A stretch of DNA of 5,293 nucleotides, taken from positions 1 through 5,293 of the forward strand of contig JAEVZN010000502.1 of assembly GCA_023392205.1 (NCBI GenBank), read 5' to 3'. Below the pieces are notes generated by a model. That model was not told the origin of the DNA. It worked only from the letters and a program-made list of their open reading frames with translations, and made no database searches. This DNA is from Pseudomonadota bacterium (GTDB taxonomy: Bacteria; Pseudomonadota; Alphaproteobacteria; Rhizobiales; Xanthobacteraceae). The position numbers were made by a program, and so were the translations under genes. Of this stretch, positions 184 through 5,293 are shown piece after piece (the stretch's first letter is position 1; every line of letters starts with the position of its first letter).

Positions 184-864
184 TTAAGCAAAGCGCTGGG
201 CGCGAGCCAGCAGGTTTGAAACTGACGAAACATGCCACCGACCGCCGCGGGGTGATCGGATGCCACGCTGGTTCAGGGCCGCTGTCATCGCGTGCAGGGT
301 AGTTGAGCCGCCGGCTCTGATCGCCGCAATCAGTGGCAAGAGTTCGGCAGTGAAGCGGTCGGCAGCGGCGATTTGGGCGTCCCGGCCAAGTCTGGCCGCT
401 TCCGCCGCATTAGCTAAATTACCCAGCCTGGCGCCGGCACCTCGTTTGGCTGCCAAGGCTGCTCGCGTCCGCTCCGATATCAGCCTCCGCTCCTTCTCGG
501 CCAAGGCCGCATAAAGGTGAAGCATGAACGGGTCGGCGTCCCGCCCCAGCTCCGCCACGATGAACGGCACCTTCTGCGCCATGAGGCCCGCAACGAAGGC
601 AACGTCGCGGGAGAGGCGATCCAGTTTCGAGACAACCACGCAGCATTTCGCAGACTTGGCGGCAGCCAGGGCAGCAGCGAGTTGCGGCCGGCGGTCGAGC
701 GCATCGGTACCCTTGCCGGTTTCGGCCTCGACGTATTCCGCGAGGATAACAAGGCCTTCCGCTTCGGCGAACCGGGCGATGGCCGCCCGTTGAGCTTCGA
801 TCCCGAGGCCGGAGCGCTGCTGCCGCTGTGTCGAAACCCGCAAATAGGCGATCGCGCTGTGCAT
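184..864 (-). CDS. serine recombinase, resolvase/invertase family
   Basis: This is a site-specific DNA recombinase that cuts and religates DNA through a serine nucleophile. Counting from the ATG at 864 (226 aa), the catalytic serine is S11 in AIAYLRVST. The conserved SKLDRLSRD segment is at about 79-87, and the long helix [19 protein letters not shown] (about 119-137) links the catalytic core to the DNA-binding part. The C-terminus (about 196-221, [20 protein letters not shown]) has the RG-I-(S/T)PRGG-W pattern that closes many 'recombinase family' proteins. A GTG at 882 would add six residues, but it falls inside a dyad and has no Shine-Dalgarno sequence. The ATG gives the usual short lead into the YLRVST strand, although its own ribosome site is also weak. 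It is slightly longer than classical Tn3 TnpR (about 185 aa). No transposase gene or second transposon end accompanies it here, so it may be a remnant of a Tn3-like element or a stand-alone resolvase. The gene itself looks intact. Confidence 0.88.
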
Positions 865-873
865 TTCCAAACA

Positions 874-980
874 GCAAACCACCGTTTGCGGTTTGTATGA
901 AGTCGAATTCAGAGCAATTTCATTGCTGTTTTCACGTCGCAGCAGCGAGGCAACCTGAGCACAATGTGAAGAAATTCACA
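874..980 (-). promoter_or_regulatory. three dyads upstream of the recombinase gene; possible res-like recombination site
   Basis: Three perfect 6-bp inverted repeats stand in a row upstream of the recombinase start: GCAAAC-N4-GTTTGC (874-889), AGCAAT-N3-ATTGCT (913-927) and TGTGAA-N4-TTCACA (965-980). Their centres are 38.5 and 52.5 bp apart. Resolvase res sites of Tn3-type elements contain three dimer-binding sites next to the resolvase gene, with the crossover site farthest away and a site I to II distance close to 53 bp. The order and spacing therefore fit. The caveat is that known resolvase half-sites lie at the outer ends of 25-34 bp subsites, and I see no clear TGTC-type end motif here. 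Confidence 0.35.
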
Positions 981-1266: not shown

Positions 1267-2274
1267 TCAGAGGTCTAAGACCAGCCTGTCGCCCACACAA
1301 CCGGAGCAGCAAATCATCATCGTTTTTCCGCTGGCCCTTTCATCCGCGGTCAAAACGAGGTCGCGATGGTCAGCAACACCCTCAATGATAGCTGTTTCGC
1401 AATTCCCGCATACGCCTTCCTTGCAGGAATGCGGCGCATCAATTCCGGCAAGGACGATCGCATCGAGAATGCTCTGACCGCGCTCGATCGTAAGCGTCTT
1501 GCCTGAGCGCGCCAGTTCAATCTGAAAGCCGCCCAGCTCGGCGTGCGAGATGGCGCCTGAAAAATATTCGGTGTGAATTTGGCTTGCGGGCAAGTTTGCC
1601 GTGCACTGCTGAAATGACGCCAGCATTCCTGACGGCCCACAGCAGTAAAGATGCGCGTCATTCTGCGCCTGCGCAATCACGGATTCCATACTGATACCAA
1701 GCTCCGGCCGCCCCCCATCGAAATGAAAATGGATGCGCGGGCTGTCCGTTTGCAGGGACATAAGTTCATTGTAGAAGGCGGCATGCTCGCGCGTACGGAC
1801 GCAATAATGAAGCGTCCAGGACCGCCCCAACTTTTCCAGCCGCTGAACCATGCTCCAGATTGGAGTGATGCCAATGCCGCCAGCGATGAACAGGACGTGC
1901 GGGGCGTCTTCCACAAGAGGGAAATGATTTTTCGGCTCACTGATGGTGACACGGCTCCCCGGCGACATCCGGTTGTGCATGAAGAGTGAGCCGCCGCGCC
2001 CGCTGGTTTCCTTGCGAACAGCAATCACATAACGGTGCCTGTCGCTCTGCTCGTTGAGAAGCGAATAGCTCCGAATCATCCCGCCCGGCAGGTGAAGGTC
2101 GATATGGGCGCCCGCGGTGAAAGCAGGAAGTGACTCCCCGCCTTTCTCGACGAGTTCGAACGAGGTGACATCAACCGCCTGCTGGCGGATCTCTCCGACG
2201 GTCACGTCGAAGAGAGGGGGCGTCGGGGCCGGCACCGCGGTCGGGAGATCGTCCATTTCGTCCATAGATCTCAT
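1267..2274 (-). CDS. Rieske oxygenase reductase component, phthalate dioxygenase reductase / VanB type (FMN, NAD(P)H, [2Fe-2S])
   Basis: This is a cytoplasmic electron-transfer protein that takes hydride from NAD(P)H, passes electrons through FMN to a plant-type [2Fe-2S] cluster and on to a Rieske oxygenase. Counted from the ATG at 2274 (335 aa), the FMN site is RSYS (68-71) with GRGGS (92-96). The nucleotide site is IAGGIGITP (130-138) with CCGPSGM (211-217). The C-terminal ferredoxin domain has C284-x4-C289-x2-C292-x29-C322, the VanB/PDR spacing, and ends in the typical LVLDL. The frame is open to an ATG at 2379 (370 aa), but that start lies inside a palindromic operator, has no Shine-Dalgarno sequence and gives a protein longer than the roughly 320 aa usual for the family. 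The 35 extra codons are also poorer in G/C at third positions. ATGs at 2274, 2265 and 2256 are all possible; 2274 is the outermost that fits the promoter at 2317-2345. The gene is divergent from lysR and is the only reductase near the oxygenase at 3630. The substrate of the pair is unknown. Confidence 0.9.
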   Translation of the reverse strand: MRSMDEMDDLPTAVPAPTPPLFDVTVGEIRQQAVDVTSFELVEKGGESLPAFTAGAHIDLHLPGGMIRSYSLLNEQSDRHRYVIAVRKETSGRGGSLFMHNRMSPGSRVTISEPKNHFPLVEDAPHVLFIAGGIGITPIWSMVQRLEKLGRSWTLHYCVRTREHAAFYNELMSLQTDSPRIHFHFDGGRPELGISMESVIAQAQNDAHLYCCGPSGMLASFQQCTANLPASQIHTEYFSGAISHAELGGFQIELARSGKTLTIERGQSILDAIVLAGIDAPHSCKEGVCGNCETAIIEGVADHRDLVLTADERASGKTMMICCSGCVGDRLVLDL

Positions 2275-2316
2275 GCGCTGATATTCGTGAAGGGGCGCAT
2301 CATCAAGCGCCTGCCA

Positions 2317-2345
2317 AGTATAGGTCGGAGGGACTGACAATGAAG
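2317..2345 (-). promoter_or_regulatory. predicted activator-dependent promoter of the reductase gene
   Basis: On the minus strand, CTTCAT (2345-2340) and TATACT (2322-2317) are separated by 17 bp. The -10 is close to consensus. The -35 keeps only the CTT of the alphaproteobacterial CTTGAC pattern, as expected for a promoter that needs an activator. Transcription would start near 2310, leaving a leader of about 36 nt before the ATG at 2274. The element mirrors the oxygenase promoter in spacing and in its distance from the shared palindrome. Confidence 0.45.
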
Positions 2346-2355
2346 ACCCGCGCGA

Positions 2356-2372
2356 TTTGACATTTTCACAAA
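2356..2372. promoter_or_regulatory. candidate LysR T-N11-A box (TTTG-N9-CAAA)
   Basis: TTTG (2356-2359) and CAAA (2369-2372) are inverted 4-bp arms with a 9-bp spacer and contain T2358-N11-A2370, the LysR-family box. The centre is at 2364, 21.5 bp from the centre of the palindrome at 2373-2398 and about 54 bp upstream of the predicted reductase transcription start. A dyad with the same N9 spacing sits at the same relative place upstream of the oxygenase. The arms are short, so taken alone this would be weak. Confidence 0.35.
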
Positions 2373-2384
2373 GATACATATCGA
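2357..2384 (+). promoter_or_regulatory. predicted lysR promoter, overlapped by the operator
   Basis: A perfect TTGACA -35 (2357-2362) is followed after 16 bp by TATCGA (2379-2384), a partial -10. The start point would be near 2391, about 60 nt before the lysR GTG. The -10 and start point lie inside the 2373-2398 palindrome and the -35 overlaps the T-N11-A box, the usual layout for negative autoregulation by a LysR protein. The weak -10 keeps the confidence moderate. Confidence 0.35.
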
Positions 2385-2398
2385 CTGTGATATGTATC
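2373..2398. promoter_or_regulatory. 26-bp perfect palindromic operator between reductase and lysR
   Basis: GATACATAT (2373-2381) and ATATGTATC (2390-2398) are perfect 9-bp inverted arms around the 8-bp spacer CGACTGTG. The site is AT-rich in a GC-rich setting and lies between divergent oxidoreductase and lysR genes, the classical place for a LysR binding site. A near copy with the same N8 spacing occurs at 3483-3506. The centre lies about 75 bp upstream of the predicted reductase start point. Confidence 0.65.
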
Positions 2399-2452
2399 GG
2401 ATCGCGAGCCGGGCGTTAGATCGCCGCAGCAGATTTTCGGCAGGACAGACCT

Positions 2453-3430
2453 GTGAAGTACAAGCAAAAACTAACTGTTCGGCACTTCCGGATGATTGAG
2501 ACGCTTGGTCGTGAGCTCAGCATCAGCCGCAGCGCGGCGATCCTACATACGTCGCAATCCGCCATTTCTCGCGGATTGAGCGAGGTCGAGGAACTGCTCG
2601 GGGCGCGGCTGTTCGAGCGGACGACGCGCCGGGTTATCCCGACATCGCTTGGACAAACGCTTATCTGGCATGCAGAGCAGATACTCGGCCAGATCGACCG
2701 TGCCGAGGCCGATGTCGACGCATTGTCGCGGGGCATCGGCGGTACACTCAATGTGGGCATGATGGGAGCCTTCTCGCCTGCCCTGTTGGCGGAAGCGGTC
2801 ATGCTCGCAACCGAGCAGGCGCCCAAGCTGACCATACGGCTACGAAGTAATTTCGCTGACAGCCTGATCACAGACATGATCAATGGTCGTTGCGAGATGG
2901 TCATTACGCATTTCGATATCAGGCAATTCAGCAATGAGGAGCTGATCGTCGAAGCGCTTTACAGCGACAATGTCGTCGTTGTTGCGGCTCCTGGACATCC
3001 TTTGACGCGCCGGAAAAGAGTGGATTGGGCGGATCTGACCGGCGAGCGGTGGGTCCTCATGCCGGTCGAGACTTCGACGCGGCGCGCCGTAGAGCGCAAT
3101 CTCCTGATCCATTCGGAAGGCAGGAGCCCGGTCATCGTCGAAGCGCTGGAACTGCATTACATTATTAGCCTCGTGCGAGATGCGCACATGGTGACGGCCT
3201 TGCCGACGGCGTTGGCAAGGTGGCTTGAGCGGGAAGCGAATCTGGTTCGCTGCCTTCCTATTACAGACGAATTGTCGTCTTGGGCCGTGTGTGTTGCGCG
3301 GCTGCGTTCGCGCAAGATTGGAGTGGCGGAAACGCTGTTCATCAATTGTTTGAAGACGGTGACCGCCAAAGCAAGGGCAAAAAATCCGGTCAAGACAAGT
3401 CGAATGAAGACACTGATTTCAAAATCATAA
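2453..3430 (+). CDS. LysR-family transcriptional regulator
   Basis: This is a DNA-binding regulator of 325 aa, the normal length for the family. The N-terminal winged helix-turn-helix spans about residues 7-66; its recognition segment is AAILHTSQSAISRGLSEVEE, followed by LLGARLFERTTRRVIPTSLG. The effector-binding domain runs from about 95 to 300, starting GTLNVGMMGAFSP and including GHPLTRRKRVDWADL and RWVLMPVETSTRR, a style that recalls the PcaQ/GbpR-type branch (tentative). The protein ends in a Lys/Arg-rich tail (about 301-325). Translation starts at a GTG preceded by AGGA at 2442-2445 with a 7-nt gap. The gene diverges from the reductase and precedes the oxygenase in the same direction, so it probably controls both, using the substrate or a downstream metabolite as inducer. 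The matched palindromes at 2373 and 3483 support this. The effector cannot be deduced. Confidence 0.95.
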   Translation: MKYKQKLTVRHFRMIETLGRELSISRSAAILHTSQSAISRGLSEVEELLGARLFERTTRRVIPTSLGQTLIWHAEQILGQIDRAEADVDALSRGIGGTLNVGMMGAFSPALLAEAVMLATEQAPKLTIRLRSNFADSLITDMINGRCEMVITHFDIRQFSNEELIVEALYSDNVVVVAAPGHPLTRRKRVDWADLTGERWVLMPVETSTRRAVERNLLIHSEGRSPVIVEALELHYIISLVRDAHMVTALPTALARWLEREANLVRCLPITDELSSWAVCVARLRSRKIGVAETLFINCLKTVTAKARAKNPVKTSRMKTLISKS

Positions 3431-3453
3431 ATCGACTTTGTCGGCGCCGGGAA

Positions 3454-3474
3454 CGCGATCGTCAAAGGATCGCG
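3454..3474. terminator. hairpin shortly after lysR
   Basis: CGCGATC (3454-3460) and GATCGCG (3468-3474) form a perfect 7-bp stem with a 7-nt loop, starting 24 bases after the lysR stop. It could end lysR transcription, which would separate it from the oxygenase promoter, but no T-run follows. It could equally be an upstream protein-binding site. Confidence 0.3.
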
Positions 3475-3482
3475 AATCCTGC

Positions 3483-3506
3483 ATTCATATTGGTTCCGAT
3501 ATTAAT
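3483..3506. promoter_or_regulatory. second copy of the palindromic operator, upstream of the oxygenase
   Basis: ATTCATAT (3483-3490) and ATATTAAT (3499-3506) pair at 7 of 8 positions around an 8-bp spacer. Compared with the operator at 2374-2397 the left arms agree at 7 of 8 positions and the right arms at 6 of 8, with an identical N8 spacing and unrelated spacers. The centre, 3494.5, is 62.5 bp upstream of the first base of the oxygenase -10; the reductase copy is 63.5 bp from its -10. Confidence 0.55.
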
Positions 3507-3526
3507 CGCTGCGAAAAAGTCAGCGA
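3506..3526. promoter_or_regulatory. LysR T-N11-A box (TCGCTG-N9-CAGCGA) upstream of the oxygenase
   Basis: TCGCTG (3506-3511) and CAGCGA (3521-3526) are perfect 6-bp inverted arms with a 9-bp spacer, embedding T3510-N11-A3522. The centre is at 3516, 21.5 bp from the palindrome at 3483-3506 and about 53 bp upstream of the predicted start point, between that palindrome and the -35. This is a typical location for the second half of a LysR activation region. Confidence 0.45.
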
Positions 3527-3533
3527 CCGGCCG

Positions 3534-3562
3534 CTTGGCGCGATCCAAGTTATCTCTATAAT
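3534..3562 (+). promoter_or_regulatory. predicted promoter of the oxygenase gene
   Basis: CTTGGC (3534-3539), 17 bp, then a perfect TATAAT (3557-3562). The -35 resembles the alphaproteobacterial CTTGAC type. The start point would be near 3569, giving a leader of about 60 nt. Because the promoter lies inside the 5' extension of the oxygenase reading frame (open from a TTG at 3438), it shows that the extension is not translated. Confidence 0.6.
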
Positions 3563-3581
3563 TTTTCTAAACGAGAGATGT

Positions 3582-3597
3582 GACGGAGATATCCGTC
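3582..3597 (+). other. short hairpin in the oxygenase mRNA leader
   Basis: GACGGA (3582-3587) and TCCGTC (3592-3597) form a 6-bp stem with the tetraloop GATA, about 13 nt after the predicted transcription start and 32 nt before the start codon. It may stabilise the mRNA or be a protein site; nothing in the sequence decides between these. Confidence 0.35.
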
Positions 3598-3619
3598 GCT
3601 CTTACGACATTCGAATTGC

Positions 3620-3624
3620 GGAGA
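3620..3624 (+). promoter_or_regulatory. ribosome binding site that fixes the oxygenase start
   Basis: GGAGA is followed after 5 nt by the ATG at 3630. It is one of the best Shine-Dalgarno matches in the window and selects this start over the TTG at 3438 that opens the longest frame. Confidence 0.75.
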
Positions 3625-3629
3625 CGGGA

Positions 3630-4796
3630 ATGAACGCGCGATCGGGCCAGATGAAGCAAAAGAGCATGGATTACGCGCTTGCCGGTCCCGGCACAGTTGG
3701 CGGGACGTTTCTGCGCAAATTCTGGCAGCCGGTCTACATGTCCAAGGAATTGGCGCGCGGAACGGCCCGTCCGATCCTGATCATGGGTGAGAAGTTCACG
3801 CTTTATCGTGGCGAGTCGGGCACCGCCTTTGTGGTCGATCACCGTTGCGCTCACAGGAATACCCAATTGTCGACCGGCTGGGTGCGCGGCGATTGTATCC
3901 GCTGCTTCTATCACGGCTGGACATTTGACGGCGATGGACAGTGCGTCGAGCGACCCGGCGAAGTGCCACCAGGGCCAGCCCCCGGCGTGCGCATCGCGGC
4001 CTACCCTACGCGCGAGCATCTCGGCCTGATCTACGCCTATTTCGGTTCTGGCGAGCCACCCGCATTCCCTCCCTTTCCGAACTTCGAGGGCACGGGCGTC
4101 GTAGAGAATATGATGGAAGACTTTCCGTGCAACTGGTTTCAAACCTATGAGAACCAGGCCGACGAGGCGCACCTGTCTTTCGTTCACAGCCCCAGCGGTT
4201 CGCACAACGCCCTCGGTCGCGACCAGGTCCGCATCCCGGAAACATGGGCGGAAGAGATGCCTTTCGGCATGGTTCGCTATAGCCGTGTCGGGGAAGGCAA
4301 GCGGCGCTCGACCTTCTATCTCTTTCCCAACACGATGCGCATCATTATCCCGCCTTTTGGTGGACTCCCGATAGGCGGATGGCGCGATTCCTACCTCACG
4401 CTGGTTCCGACAGACGACGAAAACCATATTCTCTTTATGACCCAGTTTGCACAGGTGTCCGAGGACGAGCTCCCTGCCTATAACAAGGCCGCCGAGCAGA
4501 ACGATGCGCGCATCAAGGCTGCCAGGAAGATCCCGGATATCGCCCGCGAGATTCTCGACGGCAAGGCGGTGCTGGAAGATTTCCGGGACCACCCGCGTTT
4601 TCTCCTGATCGAAGATGCCGTTGCTCAGGGTGGACAGGGCTGGATCGCCGACCGAAGTCTGGAGCATCTCGGCCGGACAGATATCTGCATTGTTCGAATG
4701 CGCCGTCTGTTCGATCGTGAACTGGAGGCCGCCGCTCAGAACAAGCCGGGCAAGGACTATGTCTATTCCGGCGAAAAGCCCGAGATCGGCTTCTAG
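3630..4796 (+). CDS. Rieske [2Fe-2S] non-heme iron aromatic oxygenase, catalytic subunit (phthalate dioxygenase / vanillate demethylase type)
   Basis: This is the terminal oxygenase of a two-component system. It uses O2 and reductase electrons to hydroxylate an aromatic ring or remove an O- or N-alkyl group. In the 388-aa protein, the N-terminal Rieske domain ligates its cluster through C73-x-H75 (CAHR) and C92-x2-H95 (CFYHGW). The catalytic domain binds mononuclear Fe(II) through D178-x2-H181-x4-H186 (DEAHLSFVH), with D329 of IEDAVAQGGQG as the likely carboxylate ligand. The opening GPGTVGGTFLRKFWQPVYMS and the late DRSLEHLGRTD are typical of the single-subunit class that includes phthalate 4,5-dioxygenase, VanA and phenoxybenzoate dioxygenase. 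No beta subunit gene is present, as expected for this class. The start is chosen by the GGAGA site and by the promoter at 3534-3562. The likely partner is the reductase encoded at 1267-2274, and the likely regulator is the LysR protein encoded immediately upstream. All catalytic residues are present. The substrate is not predictable from this sequence alone. Confidence 0.95.
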   Translation: MNARSGQMKQKSMDYALAGPGTVGGTFLRKFWQPVYMSKELARGTARPILIMGEKFTLYRGESGTAFVVDHRCAHRNTQLSTGWVRGDCIRCFYHGWTFDGDGQCVERPGEVPPGPAPGVRIAAYPTREHLGLIYAYFGSGEPPAFPPFPNFEGTGVVENMMEDFPCNWFQTYENQADEAHLSFVHSPSGSHNALGRDQVRIPETWAEEMPFGMVRYSRVGEGKRRSTFYLFPNTMRIIIPPFGGLPIGGWRDSYLTLVPTDDENHILFMTQFAQVSEDELPAYNKAAEQNDARIKAARKIPDIAREILDGKAVLEDFRDHPRFLLIEDAVAQGGQGWIADRSLEHLGRTDICIVRMRRLFDRELEAAAQNKPGKDYVYSGEKPEIGF

Positions 4797-4816
4797 TCCC
4801 GGTCAAAAGAAGCCGA
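4786..4816 (+). terminator. stem-loop spanning the oxygenase stop codon
   Basis: TCGGCTTCT (4786-4794) and AGAAGCCGA (4808-4816) are perfect 9-bp inverted arms with a 13-nt loop that contains part of the stop codon. It could protect the 3' end of the mRNA or act in termination. There is no T-run after it, so an intrinsic terminator is doubtful. A second GC-rich hairpin, CGCAGC-N6-GCTGCG, lies at 4919-4936. Confidence 0.35.
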
Positions 4817-5207
4817 GAGGTGAGCGAGGTGTTCGCCATCGGTCTGTCTTATGGTTGCATCGAGCACTCTCACGCCGCAGCATGGGGGGCACTCTCTGGG
4901 TAATGATGTCGCAGACGCCGCAGCAAAAGCGCTGCGATTCAAGTCGAAGCACAATTCATGGACATCTGCACAGCCTTGCAGCAACGAGAGGCCGAACACA
5001 CCGAACTTATATCAACGGCGTCATAAGTTGATGCAGAAATGTCAGCTATCGAACCACGCTCTCGGAATATAGTAATTCAAATGAGCGCAACGCCATGTCC
5101 AGCGTTAAGCCGCCGGCGAAGACCACTTCACGCAAAACTGTAGAGCTCTGATGAGGGCATTTGATGATCGAGCATTGTGAGTGATGTTGCCAGAGGGGGC
5201 GTCCGGA
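4797..5207. other. intergenic region between the oxygenase and the membrane protein gene
   Basis: No gene is supported in these 411 bases. Short open frames exist on both strands but lack ribosome sites and recognisable content. Visible structures are the stop-codon stem-loop, the hairpin CGCAGC-N6-GCTGCG (4919-4936), and two interleaved inverted repeats at 5004-5032. A TATAGT at 5068-5073 could be a -10 but has no matching -35. The length suggests that the downstream gene has its own promoter. Confidence 0.5.
5004..5032. promoter_or_regulatory. interleaved inverted repeats upstream of the membrane protein gene
   Basis: AACTTAT (5004-5010) pairs with ATAAGTT (5023-5029) across 12 bp, and ATCAAC (5011-5016) pairs with GTTGAT (5027-5032) across 10 bp. 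The outer repeat spans 26 bp, as does the operator at 2373-2398, but the arm sequences are not alike. It lies about 180 bp before the ATG at 5208 and may be an operator for that gene. Confidence 0.3.
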
Positions 5208-5293
5208 ATGAGATCGCTTCACAGAGTCCTCCGTGCTCTTGCAATTGCCTTTGCATATCTGGGTGGGGCCATCGTCGCAGCCCTGGCCATTGT
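5208..5293 (+). CDS. membrane protein, N-terminus only; probable TRAP transporter small permease (DctQ-type)
   Basis: The ATG at 5208 opens a frame that runs to the window end: MRSLHRVLRALAIAFAYLGG followed by AIVAALAI. A short basic head (R2, H5, R6, R9) leads into a hydrophobic stretch that looks like a first transmembrane helix. This head-plus-helix pattern is characteristic of the small 4-helix permease of TRAP transporters, which import organic acids together with a large permease and a periplasmic binding protein. AGGGGG at 5194-5199, 8 nt before the ATG, is a good ribosome site. Only 28 residues are visible, so another small membrane protein is possible. If the TRAP call is right, the transporter could bring in the aromatic acid used by the oxygenase. 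This is inference from neighbourhood only. Confidence 0.5.
   Translation, partial: MRSLHRVLRALAIAFAYLGGAIVAALAI

Follow-up and report, generated by a model that had tools for sequence, protein, structure and literature searches.

It is very probable that the LysR-type regulator encoded in the 5,293-nucleotide stretch of DNA analysed here (the window) binds all three copies of a two-part operator module, each made of a palindrome and a T-N11-A box, likely co-activating the genes behind these copies when inducer is present. What the sequences show directly is the modules themselves, the register they keep and the fact that relatives conserve them. On the sequences compared, the finding is real, and it is stronger with the relatives than from the window alone. 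The genes concerned are the following.

184-882, minus strand: serine recombinase gene (PF00239).
1267..2265, minus strand: PDR/VanB-type reductase gene, with start at 2265 as in database record P0241.
2453..3430, plus strand: LysR-type regulator gene (PF00126 and PF03466 above cut-off).
3630..4796, plus strand: Rieske oxygenase gene (PF00355; Rieske and N..D..H....H motifs).
5208..5293, plus strand: first 28 codons, hydrophobic, of a gene that runs past the end of the window.

The protein encoded at 2453..3430 is a LysR protein by both of its domains, HTH_1 (PF00126, 57.8 bits against a cut-off of 26.6) and LysR_substrate (PF03466, 109.7 against 28). With NCBIfam model TIGR02424 (PcaQ) it scored 104.1 bits, far under the cut-off of 303.8, and it is therefore not PcaQ. 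Compared with LigXa-type Rieske O-demethylases, the oxygenase scored 74.1 bits for the Rieske domain (PF00355) and a borderline 27.3 bits for LigXa_C (PF19301, cut-off 27.0), with a best stretch of 26 residues, so that it may or may not be of that type; the closest solved structure is 7fhr, named putative phthalate 4,5-dioxygenase alpha subunit. The reductase sequence carries R.YS, GG.G..P and plant-type 2Fe-2S motifs, which, like the Rieske and N..D..H....H motifs of the oxygenase, are read here in what we take to be their usual meaning. The 28-codon gene start at 5208..5293 gave no Pfam match.

Modules 1 and 2, with the predicted promoters that accompany them, are arranged as follows.

2374..2397, minus strand: module 1 palindrome, predicted high-affinity LysR site on the reductase side (8/8 arm pairs).
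2358..2370, minus strand: module 1 T-N11-A box, in the register (T28, A40) common to 9/11 modules.
2317..2345, minus strand: predicted reductase promoter CTTCAT-N17-TATACT, its -10 placed as in 10/11 modules.
2357..2384, plus strand: possible lysR promoter TTGACA-N16-TATCGA, read inside module 1 on the strand opposite the reductase promoter.
3483..3506, plus strand: module 2 palindrome on the oxygenase side (7/8 arm pairs), present at 5/5 orthologous oxygenase promoters.
3510..3522, plus strand: module 2 T-N11-A box.
3534..3562, plus strand: predicted oxygenase promoter CTTGGC-N17-TATAAT.

The initial annotation had described this pair, and its description held to the base: the arms of the two palindromes are equal at 13 of 16 positions and their spacers differ, with 2/8 positions equal; the T-N11-A box lies 21.5 bp from the palindrome centre in both modules; a CTTNNN-N17-TATA(A/C)T promoter follows each box, and the -10 starts 63.5 bp (module 1) and 62.5 bp (module 2) from the palindrome centre. 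In module 1 the perfect arms extend to 10 bp (2373-2398). The predicted -35 begins 11-12 bp past the end of the box, and modules 1 and 2 would sit at about -75 (palindrome) and -53 (box), counted from predicted, not mapped, starts.

The match between the two palindromes exceeds what shuffled sequence yields. Searched with the arms of palindrome 1, 200 dinucleotide-shuffled windows gave at best 12/16 (0/200 reached 13), and none of 2000 shuffles of the 199-bp gap between lysR and the oxygenase gene reached 13/16 arm matches; in the real window the same scan found 13/16 at 3483 and at most 11 elsewhere, the palindrome's own site excepted. Other features are non-significant taken alone: a perfect inverted repeat of at least 10 bp arises in 2/40 shuffled windows, and a sigma-70 scan of 2200-3700 returned 1 site against 0.8 expected, preferring another -35 for the oxygenase (TTGGCG, N16). 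The weight of the observation lies in the match between the two sites and in their conservation in relatives. We give almost no credence to the view that these repeats act as hairpins or terminators in RNA, or that they are AT-rich promoter sequence matching by chance. A six-pair stem could form from TCGCTG-N9-CAGCGA at 3506-3526, and the frequency of 10-bp perfect repeats in shuffled windows favours chance as far as a single repeat goes, but the relatives mostly keep only the box ends of that stem, there is no Rfam match, the sole terminator-like site is on the other strand (1 found against 1.3 expected), and the module recurs at 8 more promoters, with 0/300 shuffles as good at each. A hairpin or terminator was rejected on stem non-conservation, Rfam and the terminator scan, and a chance origin on the shuffle tests of modules 1-3 and of the relatives.

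Whole genomes were queried with the LysR protein (1914 genome searches, repeats included). Seven loci, spread over five genomes, carry an orthologue at E <= 1e-40. Later rounds added no further loci; in the large ones ~5-8 candidates per genome were scored, so that misses are possible. One genome holds loci L038 and L039, another holds L045 and L046, and L040, L041 and L042 are the remaining loci. Identity of their LysR to the window protein is 72% in L038, 49% in L039, 73% in L045, 72% in L046 (a 98-residue fragment), 51% in L040, 59% in L041 and 41% in L042. The L045/L046 genome is of the same genus as a genome holding a Bradyrhizobium jicamae locus. A relative of the oxygenase, 57-83% identical, lies 3' of lysR in five loci (L038, L039, L040, L041, L045), and protein matches whose longest contigs are equally long, such as P0009, P0140 and P0254 (10664), suggest more loci with all three genes. 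Among viral contigs no LysR relative was found. Plasmids gave no oxygenase or LysR protein match of at least 60% identity and, at the DNA level, short reductase-gene matches only, with no match to 4797-5293.

A scan motif restricted to the positions at which modules 1 and 2 of the window agree was run over 12 intergenic stretches of these loci, as a composite of palindrome, box and -10 covering 29 positions. It was found at 5/5 oxygenase promoters and at 3/3 divergent transporter/reductase promoters (L038, L045, L046), with 0/300 shuffles as good in each case. It was missing upstream of lysR in L039, L040 and L041 (257-286/300 shuffles as good), and no transporter or reductase relative occurs in the 16-17 kb fetched for these three loci. 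The motif is marginal in L042 (5/300 shuffles as good), the -10 being absent from the expected place, and in L039 and L040 the palindrome taken alone is unconvincing (67/300 and 11/300 shuffles, 3/8 arm pairs). Once 11 modules were aligned on their palindromes, the offset of 21.5 bp that the initial annotation had wished to see compared between related genomes proved to be shared: T at position 28 and A at position 40 occur together in 9/11 modules, and other offsets from 25 to 59 occur in at most 3. The CTA of the -10 falls 32-34 bp past the box in 10/11 modules. The arms average 1.15 bits of information per column, the box 0.90 and the -10 (positions 73-80) 0.56, against 0.22-0.30 elsewhere. 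The dyad is imperfect in 10/11 modules (3 to 7 of 8 arm pairs), and a third conserved box near -35 was sought, with no T-N10/11/12-A further downstream common to at least 4 modules.

The module is also specific within larger stretches. It was the best-scoring place in 7/7 relative loci of 15.5-18 kb each, narrowly so in L042 (17 against 16). A matrix built from six orthologous modules, with the window left out, scored modules 1 and 2 of the window at 41.3 and 40.4; among 831,604 positions of other loci a score of at least 14 was reached only by the six training modules and L042, and the drifted modules of L039 and L040 stayed below it. A strict pattern, derived from the known modules that it detects and missing those of L039, L040 and L042, was run over 20 whole genomes; in the five that bear the LysR orthologue it matched the six known modules only, the 15 genomes without an orthologue gave two matches, to similar sequences, and the pattern read backwards gave zero matches in all 20. 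Upstream of ten distant oxygenase relatives (37-40% identical), 450 bp were scanned and the module was absent, the best place being equalled by 47 to 200 of 200 shuffles; nine of these ten genomes were searched with the LysR and gave a best match of ~1e-21, none near 1e-40, the tenth locus (L008) coming from the same isolate as L003.

Judged by this distribution, the module goes with this LysR and the genes it is predicted to control. Its presence at 8 further promoters of orthologue loci, its absence upstream of lysR in the 3 loci where no divergent target was found, and its absence from 10/10 distant oxygenase loci support the initial view of one LysR acting on two matched modules in a fixed register. 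That another transcription factor, encoded elsewhere, binds the modules, and that the LysR between them regulates something else, is very improbable. The palindrome is even-symmetric, its core being ATA-N10-TAT in 8/11 modules, and is not itself a T-N11-A site, which would suit another factor; against this, an ATA-N10-TAT site is reported for PcaQ, itself of the LysR family (PMC5002191), the second half of the module is a T-N11-A box, and the module is present at all seven LysR-orthologue loci (marginally in L042) and absent from the ten distant oxygenase loci, whose searched genomes hold no close LysR.

Identity over 42 positions in the window, L038 and L045 was 0.67 within a promoter type, 0.64 between the two promoters of one locus and 0.65 across both. 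Nothing in these values supports a recent copying of one module into the other, since they show neither clustering by type nor a fresh copy, in line with the initial annotation, which had seen no simple recent duplication. The recognition region of the LysR reads QSAISRGL in the window, L038 and L045, QSAISRGV in L041 and QSAISCGL in the truncated L046 copy; it reads QSAVSRAL in L039 and QSAVSRTL in L040, both with a drifted module. In L042 it is QPAVSRSL, yet the module has the standard ATAT, which breaks the correlation between recognition region and module, and the correlation was therefore not used as evidence. As a separate observation, the module at the oxygenase promoters of L039 and L040 has drifted to a common form (ATGA...GATAA, GGC), and the recognition region of the LysR is changed in these two loci.

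The third module of the window was absent from the initial annotation.

5005..5044, plus strand: module 3, palindrome 5005-5028 and T-N11-A box 5032-5044 (ortholog matrix score 18.4).
5068..5073, plus strand: possible module 3 -10, TATAGT, as read from the letters.

It precedes the gene starting at 5208 that is cut by the window end, and would be a weaker third copy of the control site, new in this analysis. None of 1000 shuffled windows reached its score of 18.4 (maximum 16.2), nor did any of 2000 shuffles of 4797-5207. Its palindrome is weak (8/13 shared positions), and its box, TGCAGAAATGTCA, stands in the same register as in modules 1 and 2. Between the palindrome centre and TATAGT there are 51.5 bp, roughly a helical turn less than in modules 1 and 2, so that module 3 is predicted near -64, counted from a predicted, not mapped, start. 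Neither L038 nor L045 showed a counterpart, and the case for module 3 is for this reason its score.

The layout of these promoters, a palindrome and a second site about two turns (21.5 bp) nearer the promoter, agrees with LysR-type architecture. In that architecture the primary site is centred near -65 and has a T-N11-A core; here the predicted centres are near -75 (modules 1 and 2) and near -64 (module 3), and T-N11-A is the pattern of the second box. According to PMC5603801, a LysR tetramer contacts two sites, one of high affinity and a second that reportedly has no conserved motif. In the mechanism that we propose, the palindrome would take one dimer of the tetramer and the T-N11-A box the other, with some two helical turns between them and both dimers on one face of the DNA; since the box stops 11-12 bp before the predicted -35, the -35 would be left free for RNA polymerase. 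Given the 21.5 bp spacing and no conserved site over the -35, the module is predicted to be an activator site in active geometry. An alternative, to which we allow a small chance, is that the LysR occupies the modules chiefly as a repressor of both promoters and is relieved by inducer. Some LysR proteins do repress, and BhbR1 covers the -35 without inducer, whereas inducer shifts its second dimer off the -35 (PMC12016517); here the module ends before the predicted -35 is reached, the -35 is not covered by another conserved site, and the weak -35 sequences suit activator-dependent promoters. Along with activation by the LysR, its complex on module 1 would cover the possible lysR promoter and repress lysR. 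The primary site of LysR-family regulators usually overlaps the regulator's own promoter, as stated in PMC4834489. The position of the possible lysR promoter (2357-2384) within module 1 would fit such self-repression; its -35, TTGACA or TTGAGA, occurs also in L046 and L045 and is absent from L038.

The control scheme looks like a well-preserved case of known LysR-type control, for which ThnR, PcaQ and OxyR are precedents. The LysR-type ThnR of the tetralin genes of Sphingopyxis granuli TFA (PMC4834489, PMC6563040) activates several oxygenase-pathway promoters, including that of an operon with ferredoxin and ferredoxin reductase genes, through a primary and a secondary site at each promoter. 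Its primary sites lie at -64 (three promoters) and at -75/-76 (one), one turn apart, as module 3 and modules 1 and 2 appear to do. ThnR needs a co-activator, ThnY, and its motif differs; its divergent promoters share one intergenic region and a loop, whereas here lysR separates the modules. PcaQ of Sinorhizobium meliloti is, like the regulator here, an alphaproteobacterial LysR of aromatic catabolism with an even-symmetry ATA-N10-TAT site, but its targets differ (PMC5002191). OxyR, with its IR1/IR2/IR3 layout, has its first repeat at -66 and its second at -44 (PMC5002191); this spacing of 22 bp is close to the 21.5 bp of the modules. In the modules no conserved counterpart of the third repeat near -35 was found, and both sites of modules 1 and 2 are predicted farther upstream. 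GalR of Pseudomonas, a single LysR over two operons including a transporter gene, is comparable in having predicted recognition-site and activation-site consensus sequences, but its motifs are others and it serves gallate genes instead of a Rieske oxygenase system (PMC12314914).

In the literature covered on LysR-controlled Rieske oxygenase and LigXa systems, most subscription journals lying outside it, this regulator and its operator were not recognised. For the LysR subfamily that goes with Rieske oxygenases in Bradyrhizobium, in a Beijerinckia-like genome and in their relatives, our data provide a predicted operator at base resolution. On sequence alone, this operator points to a further member of the regulon, the gene after module 3. 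Also, the second LysR site is here nearly as conserved as the first (0.90 against 1.15 bits), and its role can be tested at two or three matched promoters about one helical turn apart.

The genes behind the divergent module vary. In L045 an MFS transporter gene comes first behind the module and the reductase gene second; in L038 there is the transporter gene only, the 17 kb covered containing no reductase relative; and in L046 there are a transporter remnant and a reductase gene. Of the initial annotation's proposal that one LysR coordinates a split operon, the matched modules and the fixed register stood. What the relatives conserve is not a pair of halves of one oxygenase system, which is one form of a looser rule, that of an oxygenase with accessory genes. 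In L045, the one intact locus with the three genes that was examined, both modules are retained, and the loss of the palindromes that the initial annotation had named as refuting its view is not seen there. The divergent target would once have been a transporter-plus-reductase operon, from which the window lost the transporter gene; such a loss most simply explains the reductase that directly follows the module in the window. A module-like site in L042 (7144-7183), where the LysR is 41% identical, faces a divergent gene that we take to be a look-alike of TctC-type solute-binding proteins, and this is perhaps the same operator with another target. We put forward only tentatively, as less likely than not, that this LysR subfamily uses the module as a portable 40-bp cassette fixed in active-state spacing, with no alternative inactive site over the -35, recruited or kept wherever oxygenase, transporter, reductase or other genes require co-induction, and working within one regulon at two distances one turn apart.

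Two further observations concern the surroundings of these clusters. The L045/L046 genome has the cluster twice: ~43 kb away from the intact cluster lies another copy, L046 (7302-9026), in which lysR is shortened and the transporter gene is reduced to a remnant, and the module and the reductase gene are kept. In the window, a minus-strand reading frame at 3-266, which resembles the end of an IS3-type transposase and has no Pfam match, overlaps the serine recombinase gene (184-882, minus strand), so that genes of mobile DNA adjoin the reductase/lysR/oxygenase cluster.
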